NCBI RefSeq assembly: GCF_012044895.1
Contig: NZ_CP050695.1
Location: forward strand, 2,200,501-2,264,500
Reading direction: 5' to 3'
Source: Aquisalimonas sp. 2447
GTDB taxonomy: Bacteria > Pseudomonadota > Gammaproteobacteria > Nitrococcales > Aquisalimonadaceae
Length of the DNA: 64,000 nucleotides
Shown here: positions 4,056 to 15,810 of the stretch, one piece after another
How the letters are laid out: each line of letters begins with the position of its first letter
Numbering within the stretch: the stretch's first letter is position 1
Program-made: the position numbers and the translations under genes
Notes under the pieces: model-generated
Databases searched by the model: none
What the model saw: only the letters and a program-made list of their open reading frames with translations
Told to the model about the DNA's origin: nothing

Positions 4056-5015
4056 TCAGGAGGTGCGGAAATTGCCGTAGCCCTGGACCTTGTGCAGGCG
4101 CTCGTCCAGCAGCGTCTCGAAGTCCTTGCCTTCCAGGAAATCGAGCTTCTCCAGCAACACCGCCTTGAGCTGTTCCGCCATGGCGTCATAATCGCGGTGG
4201 GCGCCACCGAGGGGTTCCGGTACCACCTGGTCGATCAGCCCCAGGTCGTGGAGGCGCGGCGCAGTAATGCCCATGGCCTCGGCGGCATCCTGGGCCCGCT
4301 CCGCGCTCTTCCAGAGAATCGACGCGCAGCCCTCCGGCGAGATCACGGAATAGGTGCTGTATCCCAGCATCAGCACCTGATCGCCGACACCGATGCCCAG
4401 GGCGCCGCCGGAGCCGCCCTCGCCCACCACGGTGGCGACAATGGGCGTGCGCAGCCGCGCCATGGCCATCAGGTTGCGGGCAATGGCCTCACTCTGGCCG
4501 CGCTCTTCGGCACCGACCCCGGGATAGGCGCCGGGGGTGTCGATGAAGGTAAGCAGCGGCAGATCGAACCGCTCGGCCATTTCCATGAGTCGCAGTGCCT
4601 TGCGATAGCCTTCCGGTCGCGGCATGCCGAAATTGCGCTTCACCTTGTCGCGGGTGTCACGACCTTTCTCGTGGCCGATCACCATTACCGGCCGTCCGTC
4701 CAGGCGACCGACGCCTCCGATGATCGCCGGGTCGTCGGCAAAGCCCCGGTCACCGTGGAGTTCCTCGAACTCGGTGAACATGCGCTCAATGTAGTCGGCC
4801 GTATGGGGGCGCTGCGGATGCCGGGCCAACTGCGCGACCTGCCAGGAGGTCAGGTTGCTGAAGATCTGCTCGGTGAGCGTGACGCTCTTGTCCTGCAGAC
4901 GCCGGATCTCCTCGTTGATATTGAGGTCGTTGTCGTCGCCCACATAGCGAAGCTCGTCGATCTTTGCCTCGAGCTCGGCGATGGGGCGTTCGAAATCGAG
5001 AAAATTCAGGTTCAT
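4056..5015 (-). CDS. accA: acetyl-CoA carboxylase carboxyltransferase subunit alpha
   Basis: AccA with AccD transfers the carboxyl group from biotin-BCCP to acetyl-CoA, giving malonyl-CoA for fatty acid synthesis. The 319-residue protein matches the family length and shows MNLNFLDFE at the start, the [16 protein letters not shown] block, the [10 protein letters not shown] motif and the [11 protein letters not shown] oxyanion region. The ATG is preceded by GGAAGGG. It lies 84 nt downstream of dnaE, the conserved dnaE-accA order. Confidence 0.97.
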
Positions 5016-5099: not shown

Positions 5100-8000
5100 T
5101 CAGTACTCCACCCGCACGGCCCCGTTGCCGCCCGCGAGCCCGTCCAGGCGCTTGATCAGTTCATCCGTGGGCCGCACGCGCCAGTCGTCCCCGAAGCGTA
5201 GCATCGCCCGGGCATCGGGGCGGCAGTACTCCAGCCACACCGGGCACTGCCCTTCCCGGAACGGCGCCAGCGCCTCCTGCAGGTGATCGACGGCACCGTT
5301 GCCGAGCTGACCGCTGTCCATGCGCAGCACCAGGCGGCGGGCGTAGACATCACGGATATCGCCAATCTCGTAGACCTTGTCGGCGTTGATTCGCCAGGCG
5401 TCGCTGAAGTCGTCGTAGCCCAGCCCCCCTTCCACCACCAGCAGCTTGTCCTTACCCAGCATGGAGCCGTACTTGCTGTAGGCCTCGGTGAACAGGTTCA
5501 CCTCGATGCGTCCGGTGCGGTCATCCAGCACCAGAAACCCCATCTTGTTGCCGCTCTGGGTGTTGCGCACCCGCAGGGACATGACCAGGCCGGCGGTGAC
5601 CACGCTCTTCTCGCGACGCCCGCCGTTCCCCCCGTCGCCACCGCTGGCCAGATCGCTGATCCGACCGCTGACAATCTTTTCCAGCTCATGCTCGTAGCGG
5701 GCGATGGGGTGGCCGGTGAGAAACAGCCCCAGGGTCTCCTTCTCCCCGGCCAGCCGCTCTTCCTCGTCCCACTCCGGCCACTCCGGCAGTGCCTCGCTGG
5801 CCTCTTCTTCCTCCGCCGGCGCCGCCAGCGCCAGCCCGAACATGTCCGTCTGCCCGGCCTCGGCGTTGCGCACGCTCTGTTCCGCCGCCTTCAGAGCCGG
5901 CGGGATGCGCGCCACCAGAGTGGCGCGATTGGGCCCGATGCTGTCCAGGCAACCCGCCCGCACCAGCGCCTCCAGCACCCGGCGGTTGACCCGCCGCAGG
6001 TCCACCCGCCGGCAGAGATCGAACAGGTCGGCGTAGGGCCCGCCGGTCTCGCGCTCCTGCACCAGGGCCTCAATGGCGGACTGTCCCACGCCCTTGATGG
6101 CACCGATGCCGTAGACCACGGTGCGCTCGTCGGCGGCGCGGAACTGGTAGTCCGAGCGGTTGATATCCGGCGGCAGCACCGTCAGGCCCATGGCCCGGCA
6201 GTCGTCGATGAGGGTCACCACCTTGTCGGTGTGGTCCATATCCGAGGACAGCACGGCGGCCATGAACGGCGCCGGGTAATGCGCCTTGAGCCAGGCGGTC
6301 TGGTAGGAGAGCAGCGCGTAGGCCGCCGAGTGGGACTTGTTGAAGCCGTACCCGGCAAACTTCTCCATGAGGTCGAAGATGCCTTCGGCGTGGGCCTCGC
6401 TGAGTCCGTTCTCGGTGGCCCCCTTGAGAAAGATCTCCCGCTGCTTGGCCATCTCCTCCGGCTTTTTCTTGCCCATGGCCCGGCGCAGCAGGTCGGCGCC
6501 ACCCAGGCTGTAGCCCGCCAGGACCTGGGCGATCCGCTGTACCTGCTCCTGATAGAGGATCACGCCGTAGGTGGGCTTGAGCACCTCTTCCAGATCCGGG
6601 TGCTGCAGTTCCGGAGTCGGGTACGCCACCTGGGAATGGCCGTGCTTGCGGCTGATAAAATCGTCCACCATGCCCGACTGCAGCGGGCCGGGCCGGAACA
6701 GTGCCACCAGCGCGATGATGTCCTCGAAGGAATCCGGCTGCAGGCGCTTGATCAGATCCTTCATGCCCCGGGATTCCAGCTGGAATACCGCGGTGGTGGC
6801 GCAGCGCTTGAGCAGGTCAAAGGTGGCGCGATCCTCCAGGGGCACGGTGGCGATATCCAGATCCACCTCGCCCCGTTCCCGGCGAATGGCATTCACCGCC
6901 TTCACGGTCCAGTCGATGATGGTGAGGGTGCGCAGGCCCAGAAAGTCGAACTTCACCAGGCCCACCGCCTCCACGTCGTCCTTGTCGTAGTGGGTGGCCA
7001 GGCCCTGGCCGTTGGGTTCGCAGTACAGCGGCGTGAAATCCGTAAGCGGCGTGGGAGCGATCACCACGCCGCCGGCGTGCTTGCCGACGTTGCGGGCCAC
7101 GCCCTCGAGCTTCATCCCCAGGTTCACCAGCGCCGCGACTTCCTCGTCCTCTTCGTAGCGATCCTTGAAGTCCGGTTCCTGCTCCAGGGCCTTGTCCAGG
7201 GTCATGCCCGGCTCGAAGGGGATCATCTTGGCAATGCGATCCACGAAGCCGTAGCCATGGCCGAGCACACGGCCCACGTCCCGCACCACGGCGCGGGCCG
7301 CCATGGTGCCGTGGGTGGCGATCTGGGAGACCTTTTCACGGCCGTACTTGTCGGCCACGTAGTCGATGACCTGGTCGCGCTTCTCCATGCAGAAATCGAC
7401 GTCGAAATCCGGCATGGAGACACGCTCCGGATTTAGAAACCGCTCGAAGAGTAGGTCGTAACGCAATGGATCCAGGTCAGTTATTTCCAGCGCATAGGCT
7501 ACCAGAGAGCCTGCACCGGAACCGCGCCCCGGACCCACCGGAATATCCTGCGCCTTGGCCCAGCGGATGAAGTCGGCAACAATCAGAAAGTAGCCGGGAA
7601 ACCCCATCTGGTTGATGACACCCAGCTCCCGCTCCAGGCGCTCGTCGTACTCGCGCCGCCGCTCGGCGGCATCGGGTGCGTTCAGATCAATGAGCCGCGG
7701 TAGCCGCTGCTCCAGCCCACGGCGGGATTCCTGGGCCAGATACTCGTCCACGGTAAGGCCTTCCGGTATGGGGAAGTCCGGCAGGTAGTCCTTGTCCAGG
7801 GTAAGTTCCAGGTTGCAGCGCCGGGCAATCTCCATGGTGTTGGCAACCGCTTCCGGAACATCCTGGAACAGTTCGATCATCTCCTCCGGCGTCCGCAGAT
7901 ACTGCTCCTGGGTAAAAAGGCGCGGGCGCCGGCTGTCGTCCAGAGTCCGGCTTTCGTGGATACAGACCCGCGCTTCATGGGCGTCGAAATCCGCCGCGTT

Positions 8001-8612
8001 GATGAACCGGACGGCATTGGTGGCGACCACCGGTGCGTCCGCATCCGCGGCCAGGGCCACCGCAGCATGCAGGTGGTCCTCGTCGCCGGGCCGTCCGCAG
8101 CGCTGCAGCTCCAGGTAGTAGTCGTCACCGAACAGCCCCTGCCAGAACTCCAGTCTGCGCCGCGCCAGGGCCATGTCACCAGCCACAAGAGCCCGCCCCA
8201 CATCACCGTCACGCCCCCCGGAGAGGACGATCAGGCCGTCGTTGTCCTCCTCGATCCACTGGCGGCGCACCACCGGCCGGTCGGCATGCTGCCCCTCCAG
8301 GTAACTGCGGCTGATCAGGCGGGTGAGACAGGTGTAGCCAGTGCTGTTGCGGCACAGGACCGACAGGCGGGACCGCCCCTCCGGCGCATCCGGATCCTCC
8401 AGCCAGAGATCGGCGCCAACGATGGGCTTCACGCCGGCATCCAGCGCCGCCTTGTAGAACTTGACCATGCCGAACAGATTGCCCTGGTCGGTGATGGCCA
8501 CCGCGGGCATGCCGGTAGCCGCCGCCGCCTTCACCAGGGGTTTGATACGGACAATGCCGTCAACCAGCGAAAACTCGGTATGGACATTCAGGTGGACGAA
8601 CTGTTGCGTCAT
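5100..8612 (-). CDS. dnaE: DNA polymerase III subunit alpha
   Basis: DnaE is the catalytic subunit of the replicative polymerase. The 1170-residue protein opens with the PHP domain (HTEFSLVDG, 11-19), then the palm with PGRGSGAGS at 361-369 and PDFDVDF at 401-407, which supplies two catalytic aspartates (D402, D404). The fingers, the beta-clamp-binding region and the C-terminal OB-fold follow (KMGFLVLDDRTG around residue 1010). The length agrees with the E. coli type (1160). In most relatives rnhB lies directly upstream; here lpxA2-gnnA-gnnB separates them. Confidence 0.98.
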   Translation of the reverse strand: MTQQFVHLNVHTEFSLVDGIVRIKPLVKAAAATGMPAVAITDQGNLFGMVKFYKAALDAGVKPIVGADLWLEDPDAPEGRSRLSVLCRNSTGYTCLTRLISRSYLEGQHADRPVVRRQWIEEDNDGLIVLSGGRDGDVGRALVAGDMALARRRLEFWQGLFGDDYYLELQRCGRPGDEDHLHAAVALAADADAPVVATNAVRFINAADFDAHEARVCIHESRTLDDSRRPRLFTQEQYLRTPEEMIELFQDVPEAVANTMEIARRCNLELTLDKDYLPDFPIPEGLTVDEYLAQESRRGLEQRLPRLIDLNAPDAAERRREYDERLERELGVINQMGFPGYFLIVADFIRWAKAQDIPVGPGRGSGAGSLVAYALEITDLDPLRYDLLFERFLNPERVSMPDFDVDFCMEKRDQVIDYVADKYGREKVSQIATHGTMAARAVVRDVGRVLGHGYGFVDRIAKMIPFEPGMTLDKALEQEPDFKDRYEEDEEVAALVNLGMKLEGVARNVGKHAGGVVIAPTPLTDFTPLYCEPNGQGLATHYDKDDVEAVGLVKFDFLGLRTLTIIDWTVKAVNAIRRERGEVDLDIATVPLEDRATFDLLKRCATTAVFQLESRGMKDLIKRLQPDSFEDIIALVALFRPGPLQSGMVDDFISRKHGHSQVAYPTPELQHPDLEEVLKPTYGVILYQEQVQRIAQVLAGYSLGGADLLRRAMGKKKPEEMAKQREIFLKGATENGLSEAHAEGIFDLMEKFAGYGFNKSHSAAYALLSYQTAWLKAHYPAPFMAAVLSSDMDHTDKVVTLIDDCRAMGLTVLPPDINRSDYQFRAADERTVVYGIGAIKGVGQSAIEALVQERETGGPYADLFDLCRRVDLRRVNRRVLEALVRAGCLDSIGPNRATLVARIPPALKAAEQSVRNAEAGQTDMFGLALAAPAEEEEASEALPEWPEWDEEERLAGEKETLGLFLTGHPIARYEHELEKIVSGRISDLASGGDGGNGGRREKSVVTAGLVMSLRVRNTQSGNKMGFLVLDDRTGRIEVNLFTEAYSKYGSMLGKDKLLVVEGGLGYDDFSDAWRINADKVYEIGDIRDVYARRLVLRMDSGQLGNGAVDHLQEALAPFREGQCPVWLEYCRPDARAMLRFGDDWRVRPTDELIKRLDGLAGGNGAVRVEY

Positions 8613-8789
8613 GCTGTGGCAATCCCTGTGCGGCCGAGGCGGGAAAAGGCTCTATTATGGATGAGCGGATCGGGATGGAAAACGCTGGGCTCCACAATCA
8701 GCCGCCGATCCCTCACACTACGCGGCGTTGGCGCCGTTCAGCAGCGTCCTGAACGATGCGCGCCCCGTTCAAGGCCCGGGTAGAACCGT
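8613..8789. promoter_or_regulatory. divergent dnaE / lpxA2 promoter region
   Basis: This 177-nt spacer separates dnaE (minus) from the lpxA2 cassette (plus). On the minus strand TTTCCA (8676-8681) and CATAAT (8654-8659) stand 16 nt apart and could drive dnaE. On the plus strand TATTAT (8653-8658) overlaps the same site and may be a -10 for lpxA2, but no good -35 is visible. No coding potential is apparent. Confidence 0.35.
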
Positions 8790-9563
8790 ATGATTCACAG
8801 CACCGCCGTCATCGACGACGACGCCCGCATCGGCAACGACGTGGAAATCGGCCCCTACGCCTGCATTGGCACCGGCGTTACCCTGGGTGACGGTTGCCGG
8901 GTCGGTGCCCACGCCATCCTCGAGGGGCCGACGGAGATCGGCCCGGAGAACGACATTGGCCCCCATGCCGTCCTTGGTCGGCCGCCCCAGGACCTTGGCT
9001 ACCGGGGTGAGCCAACGCGCCTGGAAATGGGTGCCGGCAACATCGTGCGGGAGTTCGTGACCATCCACCGAGGCACCCCCAAGGACCGGGGGCTGACTTC
9101 CGTGGGCAACCACAACATGTTCATGGCTTACTCCCATGTTGGCCACGACTGCATTGTCGGCAACCACGTGGTGCTGGCCAACGGTGCCACCCTGGCCGGT
9201 CACGTGACCGTCGAGGATCGGGTCAACATTGCCGGCCTGTGTGCCATCCACCAGTTCGCACGCATCGGCGAATACGCCATGCTGGGCGGGGGCACCATGG
9301 CGCCCATGGACATTCCGCCCTACACCATGGCCTCCGGCAATCACGCGCGGCTGTTCGGCCTCAACCGGCGCGGCCTCAAACGGGCCGGGCTTGGCAGTGA
9401 GGAGCAACAGGCTCTGCGCAGTGCCTACCGCATCCTGTTCAAGTCCGGCCTGCGCCTGGAACAGGCGCTGGCGCAACTACAAGAAGAGAGTGCCCTGCAG
9501 ACGCCGCATGTCCGGCATCTGATCGGGTTCATCCAATCATCGAAGCGGGGAATTACACGATGA
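8790..9563 (+). CDS. lpxA: second LpxA-type acyl-ACP--UDP-sugar O/N-acyltransferase (GnnAB-associated)
   Basis: This 257-residue left-handed beta-helix protein belongs to the LpxA family, which puts the first 3-hydroxyacyl chain on the lipid A precursor. Catalytic His119 lies in HVGHDC (E. coli His125), the QDLGYRGEPTR block is present, and the C-terminal helical part (YRILFKSG) is complete. The acyl-chain ruler position (E. coli Gly173) is Gly167. The position of E. coli Lys76 is Gly70, whereas the other LpxA here keeps Lys. It overlaps gnnA by ATGA. Because it sits with GnnA and GnnB it probably acylates UDP-GlcNAc3N on the 3-amino group; that is inference from the Acidithiobacillus ferrooxidans system. 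A UDP-sugar N-acetyltransferase role is less likely given the full LpxA architecture. Confidence 0.85.
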   Translation: MIHSTAVIDDDARIGNDVEIGPYACIGTGVTLGDGCRVGAHAILEGPTEIGPENDIGPHAVLGRPPQDLGYRGEPTRLEMGAGNIVREFVTIHRGTPKDRGLTSVGNHNMFMAYSHVGHDCIVGNHVVLANGATLAGHVTVEDRVNIAGLCAIHQFARIGEYAMLGGGTMAPMDIPPYTMASGNHARLFGLNRRGLKRAGLGSEEQQALRSAYRILFKSGLRLEQALAQLQEESALQTPHVRHLIGFIQSSKRGITR

Positions 9564-10525
9564 GCACGCTGCGCGCCGGCGTCATCGGAGTCGGCTACCT
9601 GGGACGCTTTCACGCCCAGAAATATGCGGCCATGGAGGACGTTGACCTGGTTGGGGTGGTGGACACGGACCCGGACCGCGCCGGGGCCGTGGCCGACGAG
9701 GTGGGCACCCGGGCGTTCACCGACTATCTCGAGCTGCTGGATGGGGTGGATGCCGTGAGCATTGTCGTCCCCACCCGATTCCACCACCAGGTGGCAGCGG
9801 AGTCCCTGCGCCGCGGCATTCACGTACTGGTGGAGAAACCCGTCACCACGACCCTGGAAGAAGCGGACGACCTCGTCCGCCTGGCCGCCCAGGGAAATCT
9901 GGTGCTCCAGGTGGGGCACCTGGAACGGTTCAACGCCGCGGTGCGCGCGGTGGCCGACATGGTGGGCACACCCATGTTCATCGAGTCCCAGCGTCTGGCC
10001 TCGTTCAATCCCCGGGGGGCGGACGTGAGCGTGGTCCTGGACCTGATGATCCACGACATCGACATCATCCTGAAGCTGGTGGATCAGCCCGTTGCGCGGA
10101 TCGACGCCAATGGTGCCCCCGTTATCTCCTCGGACATCGACATCGCCAACGCCCGCATCCAGTTCGCCAATGGCTGTGTGGCCAACGTCACCGCCAGCCG
10201 GGTGAGCCTCAAGGCCGAGCGCAAGATGCGACTGTTCCAGCGCAACAGCTACATTTCCCTGGATTTCCAGCAGCGCACCCTGGACGTCCGCTCGCGGGTG
10301 AATACCAAACGCGACGTTCCCGCCATGGAGGACATCCGCAGCGAGCAGCACAGCTACGAGGACGGTGACGCGCTGCGCGCCGAAATCACCTCCTTCGTCG
10401 CCTGCGTCCGCAACGGCCGTACACCACTTGTCACTGGCGCTGATGGCCGGCAGGCGCTGGCCACCGCCATCGAAATCACCCGGCAGTTGCGCGACAATCC
10501 CCTGCCGGATCAGCCACTCCAGTAG
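9560..10525 (+). CDS. gnnA: Gfo/Idh/MocA oxidoreductase, probable UDP-GlcNAc 3-dehydrogenase GnnA
   Basis: GnnA oxidises the 3-hydroxyl of UDP-GlcNAc to a ketone with NAD+. The 321-residue protein has the Rossmann fingerprint GVIGVGYLGRFH (7-18) and the family motif EKPVTTTLEEA with the conserved Lys near residue 93, followed by the alpha/beta substrate domain. It starts inside the lpxA2 stop (ATGA) and is followed by the GnnB-like transaminase, so the three are one transcription unit. The family is broad; the specific substrate is inferred from the lpxA-gnnA-gnnB arrangement known from A. ferrooxidans. WlbA-type dehydrogenases are the main alternative. Confidence 0.8.
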   Translation: MSTLRAGVIGVGYLGRFHAQKYAAMEDVDLVGVVDTDPDRAGAVADEVGTRAFTDYLELLDGVDAVSIVVPTRFHHQVAAESLRRGIHVLVEKPVTTTLEEADDLVRLAAQGNLVLQVGHLERFNAAVRAVADMVGTPMFIESQRLASFNPRGADVSVVLDLMIHDIDIILKLVDQPVARIDANGAPVISSDIDIANARIQFANGCVANVTASRVSLKAERKMRLFQRNSYISLDFQQRTLDVRSRVNTKRDVPAMEDIRSEQHSYEDGDALRAEITSFVACVRNGRTPLVTGADGRQALATAIEITRQLRDNPLPDQPLQ

Positions 10526-10565
10526 CCCCTTACCCAGCCACCCAGTTCAGAGGAAGCGAGCGCCG

Positions 10566-11666
10566 ATGATTCCGATGGTCGACCTCAAGGCCCAGTACGC
10601 AGATCTGCGCGAGGAGATCGAGCAGGGCTTCAGTCAGGTGCTGGACAGCGCCCAGTTCATCCTCGGCCCCAACGTGCAGAGTCTCGAGGAGGAAGTGGCC
10701 CGCTATCTGGGTGCCGGGCACGCGGTGGCCTGCAATTCCGGAACCGACGCGCTGCACCTGGCGCTGGCCGCGCTGGACGTGGGCCCCGGCGACGAAGTCA
10801 TCACCTCGCCGTTCACCTTCATCGCCACAGCCGAAGCCATCCGCTACGTGGGCGCCACCCCGGTATTCGTCGATATCGACAGCCGCACCTTCAACCTGGA
10901 CCTCAATCAGGTGGAAGACGCCATCGGCCCCGGGACACGCGCCATTCTCCCGGTTCACCTGTTCGGGCAACCCGTGGACATGCCGGCGCTGATGGCCCTG
11001 GCGGAACGCCACGATGTTCTGGTGGTGGAGGACTGCGCCCAATCCTTCGGCGCCGTCGTGGACGAGCGCAGCACCGGCACCTTCGGTGCCGCGGGGGCAT
11101 TCAGCTTCTTCCCCAGCAAGAACCTTGGCGCCTACGGCGATGCCGGCATGGTGACCACCAATGACGCCAACGTGGCAGAGGAACTGCGGGTGTTGCGCAA
11201 CCACGGAAGTCGCGAGCGGTATCACCACAACGTGATCGGCTACAACAGCCGCCTGGACGAGGTGCAGGCGATGATCCTGCGGGCCAAGCTGAAGCGCATC
11301 GGTCAGTACAACGCCTGTCGGCGTCGGGTAGCCGAGAGCTATAACGAGCGCCTTGGCGGTGTGCCCGGGATCACCACCCCTTATGTGGACGGCCGCGGCC
11401 GCCACGTCTACCACCAGTACACGGTGCTGGCGGATCCCCGCGAGCAGATCATGAGCGCGCTGCGGAGTGCCGACATTGGCTGCGCGGTGTACTACCCGGT
11501 TCCGCTGCACCGTCAGCCCGTGTTTCGTGACGCCTATGCGGACGTGCAGCTGCCGATCAGCGAGCGGATCGCCGAGTACTGCCTGTCGCTGCCCATCTAT
11601 CCGGAACTCACGGACCAGCAGATTCTGCGGGTTACTGAGACGATCCGACACGCCGTCGACGCTTGA
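10566..11666 (+). CDS. gnnB: DegT/DnrJ/EryC1 aminotransferase, probable GnnB
   Basis: GnnB would transfer the amino group of glutamate to 3-keto-UDP-GlcNAc, giving UDP-GlcNAc3N. The 366-residue protein has the sugar-aminotransferase blocks DLKAQYADLR, CNSGTDALHLAL, SPFTFIATAE, EDCAQSFGA, and SFFPSKNLGAYGDAG with the PLP lysine at Lys185. The frame is open far upstream into gnnA, but ATG 10566 has a GAGGAAG ribosome site and matches the family N-terminus. It lies 40 nt after gnnA and converges on rnhB with a 30-nt gap. Confidence 0.83.
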   Translation: MIPMVDLKAQYADLREEIEQGFSQVLDSAQFILGPNVQSLEEEVARYLGAGHAVACNSGTDALHLALAALDVGPGDEVITSPFTFIATAEAIRYVGATPVFVDIDSRTFNLDLNQVEDAIGPGTRAILPVHLFGQPVDMPALMALAERHDVLVVEDCAQSFGAVVDERSTGTFGAAGAFSFFPSKNLGAYGDAGMVTTNDANVAEELRVLRNHGSRERYHHNVIGYNSRLDEVQAMILRAKLKRIGQYNACRRRVAESYNERLGGVPGITTPYVDGRGRHVYHQYTVLADPREQIMSALRSADIGCAVYYPVPLHRQPVFRDAYADVQLPISERIAEYCLSLPIYPELTDQQILRVTETIRHAVDA

Positions 11667-11696: not shown

Positions 11697-12332
11697 TCAG
11701 AACGGCAGTTCGCCGGTTTCGCCCGGATCGTGCAGTGCCTGTTTCACCGGAGCGAATGAGCGACGGTGAACGGCCGTGGCACCCAGCCGCTTCAGTGCTT
11801 CCATGTGCTCCGCGGTGGGATAGCCCTTGTGGCGGGCGAAACCGTATCCTGGCCAACGGGCATCGAGCTCCACCATGATCCTGTCCCGGTCCACTTTGGC
11901 AAGAATCGACGCCGCGCCGATGGTGGGCTCCAGGCCGTCCCCCCCCACCAGGGCCTCGGCCGCGCAGGGCATGGCGGGGCAGTGATTGCCGTCCACCAAC
12001 ACCCGCTGAGGCGGCAGTGGCAGACATGCCACCGCCCGCTGCATGGCCTGCAGGGTGGCCTGAAAGATGTTGAGAGCGTCGATCTCCGCAGGCTCCACGT
12101 GAATGATCGCCCAGGCGGCTGCCTGCTCGCGGATCGCCGCCGCCAGTGCTTCGCGGCGACGCGCCGTCAATCGCTTGGAGTCGTTGATGCCGGGCACCGG
12201 CCGCTTCGGGTCGAGGATCACCGCGGCCACCACCACGGGGCCGGCAAGCGGGCCGCGACCGGCCTCGTCGACACCGGCAACCAGGGTTCCCGTGGCAGCG
12301 CCGTGACCGCCGGTCCCGCCCGTCTCCTGCAT
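11697..12332 (-). CDS. rnhB: ribonuclease HII
   Basis: RNase HII cuts the RNA strand of RNA-DNA hybrids and removes misincorporated ribonucleotides. The 211-residue frame shows the [15 protein letters not shown] motif with the acidic pair, DSKRL, LVDGN, and AKVDRD with another catalytic Asp, and ends with the usual HRRSFAPV. The start is the ATG at 12330-12332, which shares one base with the lpxB stop (TGATG); longer open frame upstream is lpxB in another frame. Order lpxB-rnhB is conserved. Confidence 0.95.
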
Positions 12333-13504
12333 CACCCCGCGACCTCGTTGTTGTTCGCCGGCCGGTGCCCGGCTTCCTGAAGCAGTTCCGCAACGGCAGC
12401 CGCTGCCTGAAGACTGGCGTCCTGCCGCAGTTCCCGGTGCAGTTGCTCGAACTCTGCCACCAGGGCCGTGCGCTGGTCCGGATTGTCCAGCAGATCCAGC
12501 ACGGCAGGACCGAGATTGCCCGGGATCGCGGCTTCCTGGGCGAACTCCGCCACCAGTCGACGCTGGGCAATGAGATTCGGCATGGCGAAATGCGGCACTC
12601 TGATCAGACGGCGCGCCAGCCACCCGGTCACGGTGGAGACCTTGTAGGCAACGACCATGGGGCACTTATGCAGCATCGCCTCCAGGCTTGCCGTCCCGGA
12701 TGCCAGCAGGGCCGCGTTCGCCGCCGCCAGACAGTCCCGGGCGCGGCCGTCCACCAGGGTCACATGCATGCCTTCGTTATACGCCGCCACCAGATCCCGC
12801 AGGTGTGCCGCAATTCGATCCGTGGCGCAGGGCACCACGAAGTGGGCATCCGGGCGATGCCGATGGAGCCAGGCCACTGTCTCCAGGAACGCCGGCCCGA
12901 GGTGGCGTACCTCGCTCATGCGGCTACCGGGGAGGACTGCCACCAGTGGCACCTCCTCCGGCAGGCCCAGTTCCGCCCTTGCGGCCCGCTGATCCGGCAC
13001 CATGGACACTTCGTCCGCCAGCGGATGGCCGACAAACCGGGCAGGTACCTGATGGTCGCGGAAGAATTCCCGTTCGAAGGGGAAGATGCAGAGCATGCGA
13101 TCCACGGCCCGGGCGATCTGCCGAATCCGTCCCTGCCGCCACGCCCAGACCGTCGGGCTGACGTAATGCACCGTGGGGACGCCCGCTTCCCGCAGACGCT
13201 GCTCGAGACGCAGATTGAAATCGGGGGCATCAATGCCGATGAAGACGTCCGGCGGGTTCCGGCGGAAACGCCGAACCAGATCACGCCGGATGAGCAGCAG
13301 CTTGGGGAGATGACGCAGAACCTCGACCAGGCCCATGACCGACAGGGCCTCCAGCGGGTAGAGGCTGGCCATGCCCTCTGCCTCCATGCGCCGTCCGCCG
13401 ATGCCCTCGAACCGGGCCTCCGGGTACAGCCGGCGCAGCTCGCGCATCAGGCCGGCACCCAGATAATCCCCGGACATCTCGCCGGCAACGATCCCGACTC
13501 GCAT
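12332..13504 (-). CDS. lpxB: lipid A disaccharide synthase
   Basis: LpxB (glycosyltransferase family 19) joins lipid X to UDP-2,3-diacylglucosamine to make the lipid A disaccharide at the inner membrane. The 390-residue protein begins [14 protein letters not shown], with the typical GExSGD motif, and has [19 protein letters not shown] and the nucleotide-binding LLPGSR-like block [10 protein letters not shown]. It follows lpxA by 15 nt and overlaps rnhB by one base. If the GnnAB cassette is active, its substrates would carry amide-linked chains. Confidence 0.96.
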
Positions 13505-13519: not shown

Positions 13520-14290
13520 TTAGCGCACGATGCCGCGGCGACTGTCGCGAATGAAAGCGACAAGCCGGGCCACTGGCGGATGATTCGCGGCCAGTTCGTC
13601 GATCTGTTCCAGCGCCGGTTCCAGACGCAGCCCGGACTTGTAGAGCATGCGGTAGGCCCGCCGCAGGGCATGCACATCTTCCCGGGCGAAGCCCTGTCGT
13701 CGCAGGCCCTCGCTGTTGACGCCATGGGGCGTGGCGGGGTTCCCGGCAACGGTCACGAAGGGCGGCACATCCTGCTTGATGCAGCTCCCCATGGACGAGA
13801 AGCAATATGCGCCGATACTGCAGAACTGATGGACCAGGCTGAATCCGCCGAGGATGGCGTCATCCCCCACGTCGACATGCCCGGCCAGCGAGGCGCCATT
13901 GGCGAACACGATCCGGTGGCCCACCCGGCAGTCATGGGCAATGTGGACGTAGGCCATGATCCAGTTGTCATTACCGATCCGCGTCACGCCCTGATCCTGG
14001 ACGGTTCCCCGGTTGATGGTGACGAACTCGCGGATGGTGTTGCCGTCGCCGATCTCCAGCAACGTCTCTTCGCCGGCGAACTTCTTGTCCTGAGGTTCCG
14101 CCCCGACCGAGGCGAACTGGAAAATCCGATTGCCCCTGCCGATGCGGGTGGGGCCGAAAATGGTGGCGTGCGGGCCCACTTCGCAGTCATCCCCGAGTTC
14201 CACGTGGGGCCCGATGATGGCGTATGGTCCAATGCGGACGTTGTGCCCCAGCGTCGCCGCCGGATCAACTTGCGCCGTGGGGTCGATCAA
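13520..14290 (-). CDS. lpxA: UDP-N-acetylglucosamine acyltransferase LpxA (canonical locus copy)
   Basis: This LpxA lies in its conserved place between fabZ and lpxB. Catalytic His119 is in HIAHDC; Lys70 matches E. coli Lys76; and the acyl-length ruler position (E. coli Gly173) is Met167, as in Pseudomonas aeruginosa LpxA which prefers 10-carbon chains. There is no ATG. I place the start at TTG 14288-14290, which overlaps the fabZ stop as TTGA and gives 256 residues aligned with the E. coli N-terminus; a GTG at 14312-14314 would add eight residues and overlap fabZ more. It differs from the lpxA copy at 8790-9563 at both key positions, so the two probably use different chains or sugars. Confidence 0.92.
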
Positions 14291-14727
14291 GATTCCACAT
14301 CCCGCATGGTGCACATGATGTCTGCCTCGGCGGCAAGCTCCCCGTCGACGGTGGCTTTCCCGGAAAACATCCAGATCCCGCGCCGCACCTTCGCCAGGGT
14401 GACCTCGATACGCACCTGGTCACCCGGCTCCACCGGATGCTTGAACCGCGCCTTGTCGAACCCCACCAGATAAAAAAGAGTGTCACTCCCGGGGTGGCGC
14501 CCTTCGGTCTCGAAGGCCAGCAGACCGCAGGCCTGGGCAATGGCCTCCAGGACCAGCACCCCCGGCATCACCGGTTTGACCGGGAAGTGCCCCTGAAAGA
14601 ACGGCTCATTGATGGTGACGTTCTTGATCCCCACCAGCCGCTCCCCCGGTTCTACGTCGACCACCTTGTCAACCAGCAGAAACGGATAGCGATGGGGCAG
14701 CAGATTCTTGATTCGATTGATGTCCAT
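14287..14727 (-). CDS. fabZ: 3-hydroxyacyl-ACP dehydratase FabZ
   Basis: FabZ dehydrates 3-hydroxyacyl-ACP in fatty acid elongation and competes with LpxA and LpxD for the same pool. The 146-residue hot-dog-fold protein has [10 protein letters not shown] near the start and the catalytic His47 ([11 protein letters not shown]) and Glu61 (LEAIAQA). It is 18 nt after lpxD and overlaps the lpxA start. Placement among the lpx genes is conserved. Confidence 0.97.
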
Positions 14728-14745: not shown

Positions 14746-15810
14746 TCACTGTTGTTCGGTGGCGGGTCCATCCTGCGACGCCGCCGGGTCATCGCCGTTG
14801 TCCGGCGCCAGCCGCCGCTCCAGGGCGCGCAACCGGCGCGCCATGTCGTCGAGCTGATGGAAGCGTGCGGCATTCCGGCGCCAACTCCGGTTCGGCTCCA
14901 CACCCGTCCCGGACGAATACACTCCGGGTTCACGCAGACTCTTGGTCACCTGCGTCAGTCCGGTGATGTGCACATTGTCGGCGATCTCCAGATGACCGGC
15001 GATGCCGACCATACCCGCAATCGTGCAATAGCTGCCAATGTAGGTGCTACCCGACACCCCCACGGCGGCCGCCATGGCAGTATGCGCGCCGATGTGGACG
15101 TTGTGCGCGATCTGCACCAGGTTGTCGATCTTGACGCCGTCGCCGATCACCGTGTCGCCGATGGCACCGCGGTCGATGGTGGTGTTGGCGCCGACATCCA
15201 CGTCGTCACCGATGACCACGCCACCCACCTGCGGTACGCGCTCCCAGCGGCGACCGTCGCGGGCAAAGCCGAAGCCATCGGAACCGATGACGGCACCAGA
15301 CTGGATACGGCAGTTGCGACCCAGCTGACAGTCCGCTGCAATCACTGCTCCGGCGCGGATGACGCAATCGTCGCCAATCCGCACACCAGCGCCGATGACC
15401 ACACCAGCATCCACCACCACGCGGTGACCGATCACCGCGCCGTCCTCGATGACGGCACGCGGGCCAATGGTGGCATCCGTCGCAACGCTTGCCGATGCCG
15501 CAATGATGGCGGCTGGATCCCGGCCGGGCTCGCGGGGTTCCGGGTAAAGCAGCTGTGCGGCCCGGGCAAAGGTCAGGTGGGGGTTCTCGGACACCAGGGC
15601 ATTGCCAGTCACGGCGTCGGCGTCATCCGCCGTCACAATGACTGCACCGGCCGCTGTCTGCTGCAGGTGCTTGCGATAGCGCCGGTCCACCAGAAACGAG
15701 ACCGCGTCGGCGCCAGCTTCCGCCAGCGACGCCACCCGTCGGACCTGGTGCTCCGGATCCCCGACGAGCTGCGCGCCCAGGGCCTCTGCCAGCTCACCCA
15801 ACGCTTTCAT
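14746..15810 (-). CDS. lpxD: UDP-3-O-(3-hydroxyacyl)glucosamine N-acyltransferase
   Basis: LpxD adds the second 3-hydroxyacyl chain, to the 2-amino group. The 354-residue protein has the N-terminal uridine-binding domain ([17 protein letters not shown]), a long run of hexapeptide repeats ([17 protein letters not shown] and following), the active-site region [14 protein letters not shown], and a C-terminal helix. Length is a little over the usual 340 because of an acidic, Gln-rich tail. It lies between skp and fabZ as in E. coli. Confidence 0.96.

Follow-up and report, generated by a model that had tools for sequence, protein, structure and literature searches.

A second LpxA linked to GnnA and GnnB in Aquisalimonas sp. 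2447: a probable dedicated route into partly amide-linked lipid A

Why does a genome that carries a canonical lpxA hold a second complete copy beside it, on the opposite strand and joined to gnnA and gnnB? The question is raised by a window of 64,000 nucleotides (the whole stretch of DNA that was analysed) from Aquisalimonas sp. 2447, contig NZ_CP050695.1, positions 2,200,501 to 2,264,500; coordinates below are those of the window. Three intact plus-strand genes lie there, inverted between rnhB and dnaE and adjoining the lpxD-fabZ-lpxA1-lpxB run. Open reading frame calls and an NCBIfam scan identify the first as lpxA2 (8790-9563, 257 residues), an LpxA linked to gnnA. The second, gnnA (9560-10525, 321 residues), overlaps lpxA2 by 4 base pairs (bp) and encodes an oxidoreductase of the Gfo/Idh/MocA family resembling UDP-GlcNAc 3-dehydrogenases. 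The third, gnnB (10566-11666, 366 residues), begins 40 bp past gnnA and encodes a DegT-family aminotransferase; its reading frame opens at a GTG at 10365, but homology begins only at the ATG at 10566, which is the preferred start. An earlier note on this DNA, made from its letters, had described three plus-strand genes, overlapping or tightly spaced, inside the lpx-dnaE cluster, and the reading frame calls and family scans confirm this layout.

We propose that the lpxA2-gnnA-gnnB cassette provides a self-contained way into lipid A synthesis, operating beside the canonical route and leading to hybrid or mixed lipid A; we give this reading a probability of about 0.8. The GnnA/GnnB pathway of Acidithiobacillus ferrooxidans is said to go back to Sweet et al. 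in 2004. In that organism GnnA and GnnB together convert UDP-N-acetylglucosamine (UDP-GlcNAc) to its 3-amino analogue, UDP-GlcNAc3N, according to passages of two papers (PMC8036547, PMC3342949). By analogy, the GnnA of Aquisalimonas would oxidise UDP-GlcNAc at C3 and GnnB would transaminate the ketone to give UDP-GlcNAc3N. LpxA2 would then add a 3-hydroxyacyl chain, predicted to be about C14, to the 3-amine of this sugar, and LpxA1 would add a shorter chain, predicted to be about C10, to the 3-hydroxyl of UDP-GlcNAc. Both acylated sugars would share one LpxD, one LpxB and presumably the other later enzymes, and the outcome would be either a hybrid backbone of 2,3-diamino-2,3-dideoxyglucose (GlcN3N) and glucosamine (GlcN) or a mixture of lipid A types. 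If LpxA2 is indeed a dedicated acyltransferase for UDP-GlcNAc3N, the cell should make lipid A that is partly amide-linked.

Searching the genome (one contig, 3.97 Mb) with LpxA2 at E<=0.001 returned LpxA2, LpxA1 and one LpxD, and the LpxB query returned one LpxB only, so that these two queries found no second LpxB or LpxD that might act as a partner of LpxA2. Since one LpxD and one LpxB were found, both products would enter a single pipeline, and a hybrid or mixed lipid A is therefore likely. The pathway as such is known. Less known is the arrangement, in which a dedicated LpxA of the amine type forms part of a portable cassette and the canonical route is retained; in searches of the open-licence PMC literature we recognised no paper describing this cassette or the residue split at K76 presented below.

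Identity and ancestry of the cassette proteins

LpxA2 scores above both NCBIfam LpxA equivalog cut-offs (339.3 bits against 231.05, and 354.6 bits against 226), as does LpxA1. The catalytic H125 of Escherichia coli LpxA is retained as H119, and D126, H122, H144, H160 and N198 (E. coli numbering, as for all LpxA residues below unless stated) are retained too. The closest PDB relative of GnnA by sequence is 7bvj (3.5e-66), which we take to be A. ferrooxidans GnnA, its PDB record reading only Oxidoreductase, NAD-binding. The homology extends over nearly the full length, with the stretches GxGxLGRFH, EKP and DLMIHD in common, at an identity of only 42%. GnnA falls below the cut-off of the NCBIfam model UDP-GlcNAcDh_Arch (225.2 bits against 450); because this model is archaeal by name, the shortfall was not weighed against the assignment. 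For GnnB the closest PDB relatives by sequence are 7b0d (1.3e-105) and the WbpE structure 3nyu (1.1e-94). It may also be compared with the aminotransferases encoded beside gnnA in four genomes that we call Acidithiobacillus-like, a label that rests on the nearness of their GnnAs to 7bvj in a comparison without named Acidithiobacillus sequences; three of these are 52-55% identical to GnnB over the full length and one is 64% identical over 187 residues.

The presence of WbpE among the relatives of GnnB invites a different explanation, in which the cassette supplies a sugar for O-antigen or capsule (GlcNAc3NAc or its uronic acid) and LpxA2 acts like WbpD or WlbB. The Wbp route does combine a 3-dehydrogenase, a 3-aminotransferase and an N-acetyltransferase, as part of PMC10622841 describes. 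However, LpxA2 is a full-length LpxA, its neighbours in the window are lpx genes, and the six neighbours scanned at three cassettes unlinked to this junction are not sugar genes. The earlier note had suggested asking whether LpxA2 groups with WlbB-type acetyltransferases; it groups with LpxAs, and its match to 3mqg, presumably WlbB, covers 50 residues. An identity as a short hexapeptide acetyltransferase of the WlbB/WbpD type was rejected on these grounds, and we consider the sugar explanation extremely improbable.

The ancestry of LpxA2 was examined with a set of 196 LpxA rows, reduced to 191 by dropping those shorter than 240 residues or with unknown residues and extended to 193 by two PDB chains. 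Trees were built from the 191 LpxAs, from 126 rows with FastTree, and from 57 and 47 of the 193 with IQ-TREE. In the 191-LpxA tree, 21 LpxA2s of the host order group with the LpxAs of the four Acidithiobacillus-like genomes (G363, G288, G195 and G066), whose GnnAs are the nearest to 7bvj (77%, 68%, 62% and 57% identity, respectively). Each of these 25 LpxA genes is followed directly by gnnA, at a distance of 0-45 bp, and the gnnA and gnnB families are the same. In the four genomes the gnnA-linked LpxA is the only one at E<=1e-25, whereas in Aquisalimonas a canonical LpxA stands alongside. LpxA2 is 55-58% identical to these four LpxAs (55-57% in global alignment), and in global alignment it is 52% and 56% identical to two gnnA-linked LpxAs of Geobacteraceae; its global identity is 50% to LpxA1 (51% in the genome search), 45% to the Pseudomonas aeruginosa and 44% to the E. 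coli enzyme. Its closest relatives found outside the host order are thus gnnA-linked as well.

A canonical clade that includes the E. coli and P. aeruginosa enzymes and LpxA1 excludes LpxA2, with a support of 97 by the Shimodaira-Hasegawa-like approximate likelihood ratio test (SH-aLRT) in the 47-row tree and support values of 96.3/94 in the 57-row tree, in which labels near the root may have shifted. The possibility that LpxA2 is a recent duplicate of LpxA1 was tried and discarded, a single clade of the two being rejected by the approximately unbiased (AU) test (p 0.00045). LpxA2 both adjoins gnnA and falls outside the canonical clade, and we class it on this basis as a gnnA-linked, putatively amine-type LpxA. 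In both IQ-TREE trees the LpxA of Leptospira interrogans groups with a different set of second LpxAs.

Occurrence of the cassette and of second LpxAs

GnnA and an LpxA2 are present in 14 of 14 genomes of the host family that were searched, our own included (in one, G004, lpxA2 is split across two contigs), and the ratio of nonsynonymous to synonymous differences per site (pN/pS) of LpxA2 against five relatives is 0.26-0.42. Because of these two results we do not regard the cassette as a product of chance. In the host order, sampled as 39 genomes at least 90% complete, GnnA occurs in 19. At least two LpxAs are found in 18 of these 19, and a single LpxA in 20 of the 20 GnnA-negative genomes. Within one genus of small genomes (g14), in four members the inverted cassette separates rnhB from dnaE, and in five the junction is empty, with 69-88 bp between the homology matches. 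Three other genomes (G015, G016 and G042) carry the cassette away from this junction, where the gap is 9-88 bp; in G018, G019 and G023 the junction lacks the cassette but is not short (0.6-1.4 kb). Within the order, then, lpxA2-gnnA behaves very nearly as a unit in gain and loss, G017 (below) being an exception, and gnnB travels with it except in G042. The statement of the earlier note that the cassette breaks a conserved rnhB-dnaE order applies to the host family. It does not extend to the order, in which 20 of the 39 genomes are without GnnA and three more have the cassette elsewhere. A cassette peculiar to this genome, or an oddity of its assembly, is rejected by the occurrence in family and order and by synteny.

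Two host-order genomes deserve separate mention. In G017 (L324) a gnnA homologue (58%) stands without a gnnB or another lpxA close by, and its neighbours include a CMAS-family (cyclopropane-fatty-acid-synthase-like) methyltransferase and an ArsA-family ATPase. G009 (L335) has a third LpxA with A76 and G173, part of an additional lpxD-fabZ-lpxA-lpxB run that lies on a different contig and may be contamination (3%).

A wider sample of the class comprised 370 genomes at least 90% complete, in which GnnA was called at E<=1e-50 and LpxA at E<=1e-25. A GnnA homologue is present in 132, at least two LpxA matches in 49 and no LpxA match in 12. Two or more LpxAs occur in 47 of the 132 GnnA-positive genomes and in 2 of the 238 GnnA-negative ones (Fisher's test, 1e-21, the genomes not being independent). 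One of these two exceptions has 6% contamination, and some of the additional LpxA matches, such as those in G341 and G208, could be gene fragments or copies in decay. Counted by family, genomes with GnnA and two or more LpxAs belong to 28 of the 70 families that have a GnnA-positive genome. The other families number at most 97, on the assumption that every family code is represented in the sample, and one of them contains a GnnA-negative genome with several LpxAs.

A residue split between paired LpxAs

According to passages of PMC6408518, the change G173M in E. coli LpxA shifts its preference from C14 to C10 chains and M169G in the P. aeruginosa enzyme does the reverse; K76 of E. coli LpxA touches the glucosamine ring oxygen, as part of PMC6286764 reports. 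By alignment, LpxA2 has glycine at position 76 (its own G70, plus-strand codon 8997-8999), M170 (M164) and, at the ruler position, G173 (G167, plus-strand codon 9288-9290). LpxA1 has K76, F170 and M173, the last two as in P. aeruginosa. The copies therefore differ at the acyl ruler residue too, a point beyond those of the earlier note.

This split is general in the host order. In each of the 21 dual genomes for which both sequences were available (G004 is not counted, and G009 carries the third copy described above), the canonical LpxA combines K76 with a bulky residue at 173, and LpxA2 lacks K76 and has G173. K76 is also missing from the L. interrogans LpxA and from two of the four Acidithiobacillus-like LpxAs, and G173 is found in 25 of 25 members of the group formed by these four and LpxA2. 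Among LpxAs linked to FabZ, M173 is present in 72 of 101, F170 in 93 of 101 and K76 in 86 of 100. The pairing was counted in GnnA-positive genomes with several LpxAs, 7 of 69 multi-LpxA genomes having been dropped for fewer than two usable sequences. Of 60 such genomes with at least two sequences, 53 have one copy with K76 and one without; one has a K76 copy and two without, four have two K76 copies and two have none. When the 128 copies are classified individually, 64 combine K76 with a bulky residue at 173 and 56 combine its absence with G or A at 173, the discordant classes numbering 4 and 4. In 126 genomes with a single LpxA, a sample that favours LpxAs scoring well against LpxA2 and is not a random draw, K76 is lost in 23 of 50 GnnA-positive and in 6 of 76 GnnA-negative genomes (Fisher 1e-6); by family the counts are 13 of 30 and 1 of 42 (1.7e-5). 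The six GnnA-negative losses all belong to one genus (g9; G018-G023), whose canonical LpxAs read QHKG around position 76.

The split at 173 and 76 makes it probable that the two copies use chains of different lengths (about C10 for the ester and about C14 for the amide) as well as different sugars. In Spiribacter salinus, assigned by its authors to the Ectothiorhodospiraceae, the backbone is glucosamine and bears 3-OH-C10 at 3 and 3', according to part of PMC5923411, and this suits the C10 prediction for LpxA1. One may ask, however, whether chain length is the whole story. LpxA2 could be mainly a chain-length variant, both copies acylating UDP-GlcNAc (or LpxA2 taking either sugar) with about C10 from LpxA1 and C14 from LpxA2, and GnnA and GnnB serving elsewhere. 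The contrast of M170/G173 with F170/M173 would suit this, as would the finding that positions 173, 156, 170 and 171 head the list of columns that discriminate the copies; two LpxAs are read in this way by the authors who treated Segatella copri, and a like role has been speculated for Psychrobacter. Against it, second LpxAs are nearly confined to GnnA-positive genomes, lpxA2 overlaps gnnA and is gained and lost with it, and the loss of K76 tracks GnnA in genomes with a single LpxA, which have no partner enzyme to share out chain lengths with. We regard this chain-length explanation as unlikely. The earlier note's gene identities, its UDP-GlcNAc3N pathway and its view of LpxA2 as the dedicated partner of GnnA and GnnB are supported by the trees, synteny, co-occurrence and residues taken together.

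Several observations weigh against the proposal of a dedicated amine-type LpxA. The columns that best separate the copies are mostly ones that we take to line the acyl pocket. K76 is retained in 12 of 13 LpxAs linked to gnnA in Geobacter, Desulfobacterales and similar groups (R stands in its place in the remaining one), in 5 of 5 from Limnohabitans and similar organisms, in the other two of the four Acidithiobacillus-like LpxAs, in 3 of 9 other LpxAs adjacent to gnnA or gnnB, and in 6 of 38 LpxA copies without an lpx neighbour; since so many gnnA-linked LpxAs keep it, loss of K76 is not required. A test of K76 against GnnA by independent pairs yielded just 6 pairs on well-supported branches, of which on average 2.5 agreed and 0 opposed (p 0.5). 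A single LpxA is found in 85 of the 132 GnnA-positive genomes, and a dedicated copy is therefore common but not required. G042 has lpxA2-gnnA with no gnnB at E<=1e-60, and G017 has gnnA alone. In the trees, the monophyly of LpxA2 is without firm support, and its grouping with the four Acidithiobacillus-like LpxAs is weak (0.37 with FastTree, 0 in the 47-row IQ-TREE analysis); this grouping is absent from both IQ-TREE trees and, imposed as a constraint, is not rejected (AU p 0.45). The canonical clade itself includes a few gnnA-linked LpxAs, for example from Limnohabitans.

The broad pattern of residues and co-occurrence is the more interesting part of these results. It suggests a wider hypothesis, to which we give somewhat less than an even chance: that many Gammaproteobacteria use two LpxAs that follow a common residue code, in which K76 with a bulky residue at 173 denotes the hydroxyl sugar and a short chain, and absence of K76 with a small residue at 173 the amine sugar and a long chain. 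Together the two would make a hybrid lipid A with an alkali-stable long chain and a short ester chain, and in the host order the amine branch would be a portable three-gene cassette that enters or leaves mostly at one junction. If this is true, lipid A backbone chemistry would be predictable from a few residues of LpxA, and organisms in which the enzyme is doubled would offer natural pairs for studying the choices between amine and hydroxyl and between C14 and C10. Amide-containing lipid A might then be widespread in the class, as judged from the genes (the 132 of 370 genomes with a GnnA homologue).

Comparison with known systems and the surrounding genes

A parallel is provided by Capnocytophaga canimorsus, a member of the Bacteroidota. 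According to passages of PMC3342949, it has lpxA, lpxA', gnnA and gnnB and a hybrid GlcN3N-GlcN backbone with different chains at 3 and 3'. Like Aquisalimonas it holds two lpxA genes with gnnA and gnnB in one genome, and its backbone illustrates what these genes can accompany. It differs in that, in the same passages, lpxA and lpxA' lie in a cluster with lpxC and lpxD, the remaining genes are scattered, and no lpxA-gnnA-gnnB cassette appears. As in C. canimorsus, hybrid or mixed lipid A appears more likely for Aquisalimonas than a switch between types.

The earlier note had raised such a switch, and this idea is unsupported. A conditional form of it, in which one condition turns on the cassette and the cassette then takes the place of the canonical route, might draw on the position of the cassette, which lies on the other strand and has a divergent upstream region to itself (8613-8789, strand-neutral, between dnaE and lpxA2). 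However, there is no regulator gene within the cassette, and a single conserved element was noticed upstream. This is a promoter-like TATTATG, common to all 10 host-family dnaE-lpxA2 intergenic regions aligned (our own and nine others) and spotted by eye in one alignment. It may be the -10 box of either dnaE or lpxA2. Conditional replacement is, in our judgement, very unlikely, and we retain the proposal of two routes running side by side.

Campylobacter jejuni has one LpxA. Its gnnA and gnnB affect lipid A, according to part of PMC8036547, and the backbone is a GlcN/GlcN3N hybrid, so that in these two respects it resembles what we propose. The L. interrogans LpxA (PDB 3hsq) shares with LpxA2 a glycine at the places of both K76 and G173, but the two are only 42% identical. 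The selectivity of the Leptospira enzyme was reportedly the subject of Robins et al. in 2009. One lpxA is given for L. interrogans in the gene list seen in part of PMC4758666.

The surrounding genes, all on the minus strand, were assigned by family scan except where stated. On one side lie accA (4056-5015) and dnaE (5100-8612). On the other, rnhB (11697-12332) is convergent with gnnB and is followed by lpxB (12332-13504), the sole LpxB found in the genome, and by the canonical lpxA1 (13520-14314), for which a TTG start would give 257 residues. The run continues with fabZ (14287-14727), named by its place and by a match to the fabZ annotated next to lpxA in E. coli, and lpxD (14746-15810), named by its place and by a weak match to LpxA. 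In the relative G008 (L334) about 3.4 kb separate lpxB from rnhB, unlike in its kin.

Related arrangements occur elsewhere. In 17 of 80 named gnnA loci, many of them short records, rnhB lies upstream of gnnA on the opposite strand, and 16 of those have an lpxB match downstream of gnnA. Ectothiorhodospira and Thioalkalivibrio (L099, L110, L154 and others of L075-L154) show an inverted gnnA-gnnB-lpxB run beside rnhB, and several Legionella loci have gnnA and then lpxB beside rnhB with no gnnB match in between. The LpxBs of these rnhB-side runs are only about 33-39% identical to the LpxB of the window. Two genomes of one family (f31), G197 (L236/L258) and G068 (L240/L270), have the order lpxA-gnnA-lpxA, all on one strand. 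In Simiduia aestuariiviva (L098), two LpxA matches stand in tandem, 14 bp apart, and an inverted gnnA-gnnB-lpxB run lies about 3 kb away.

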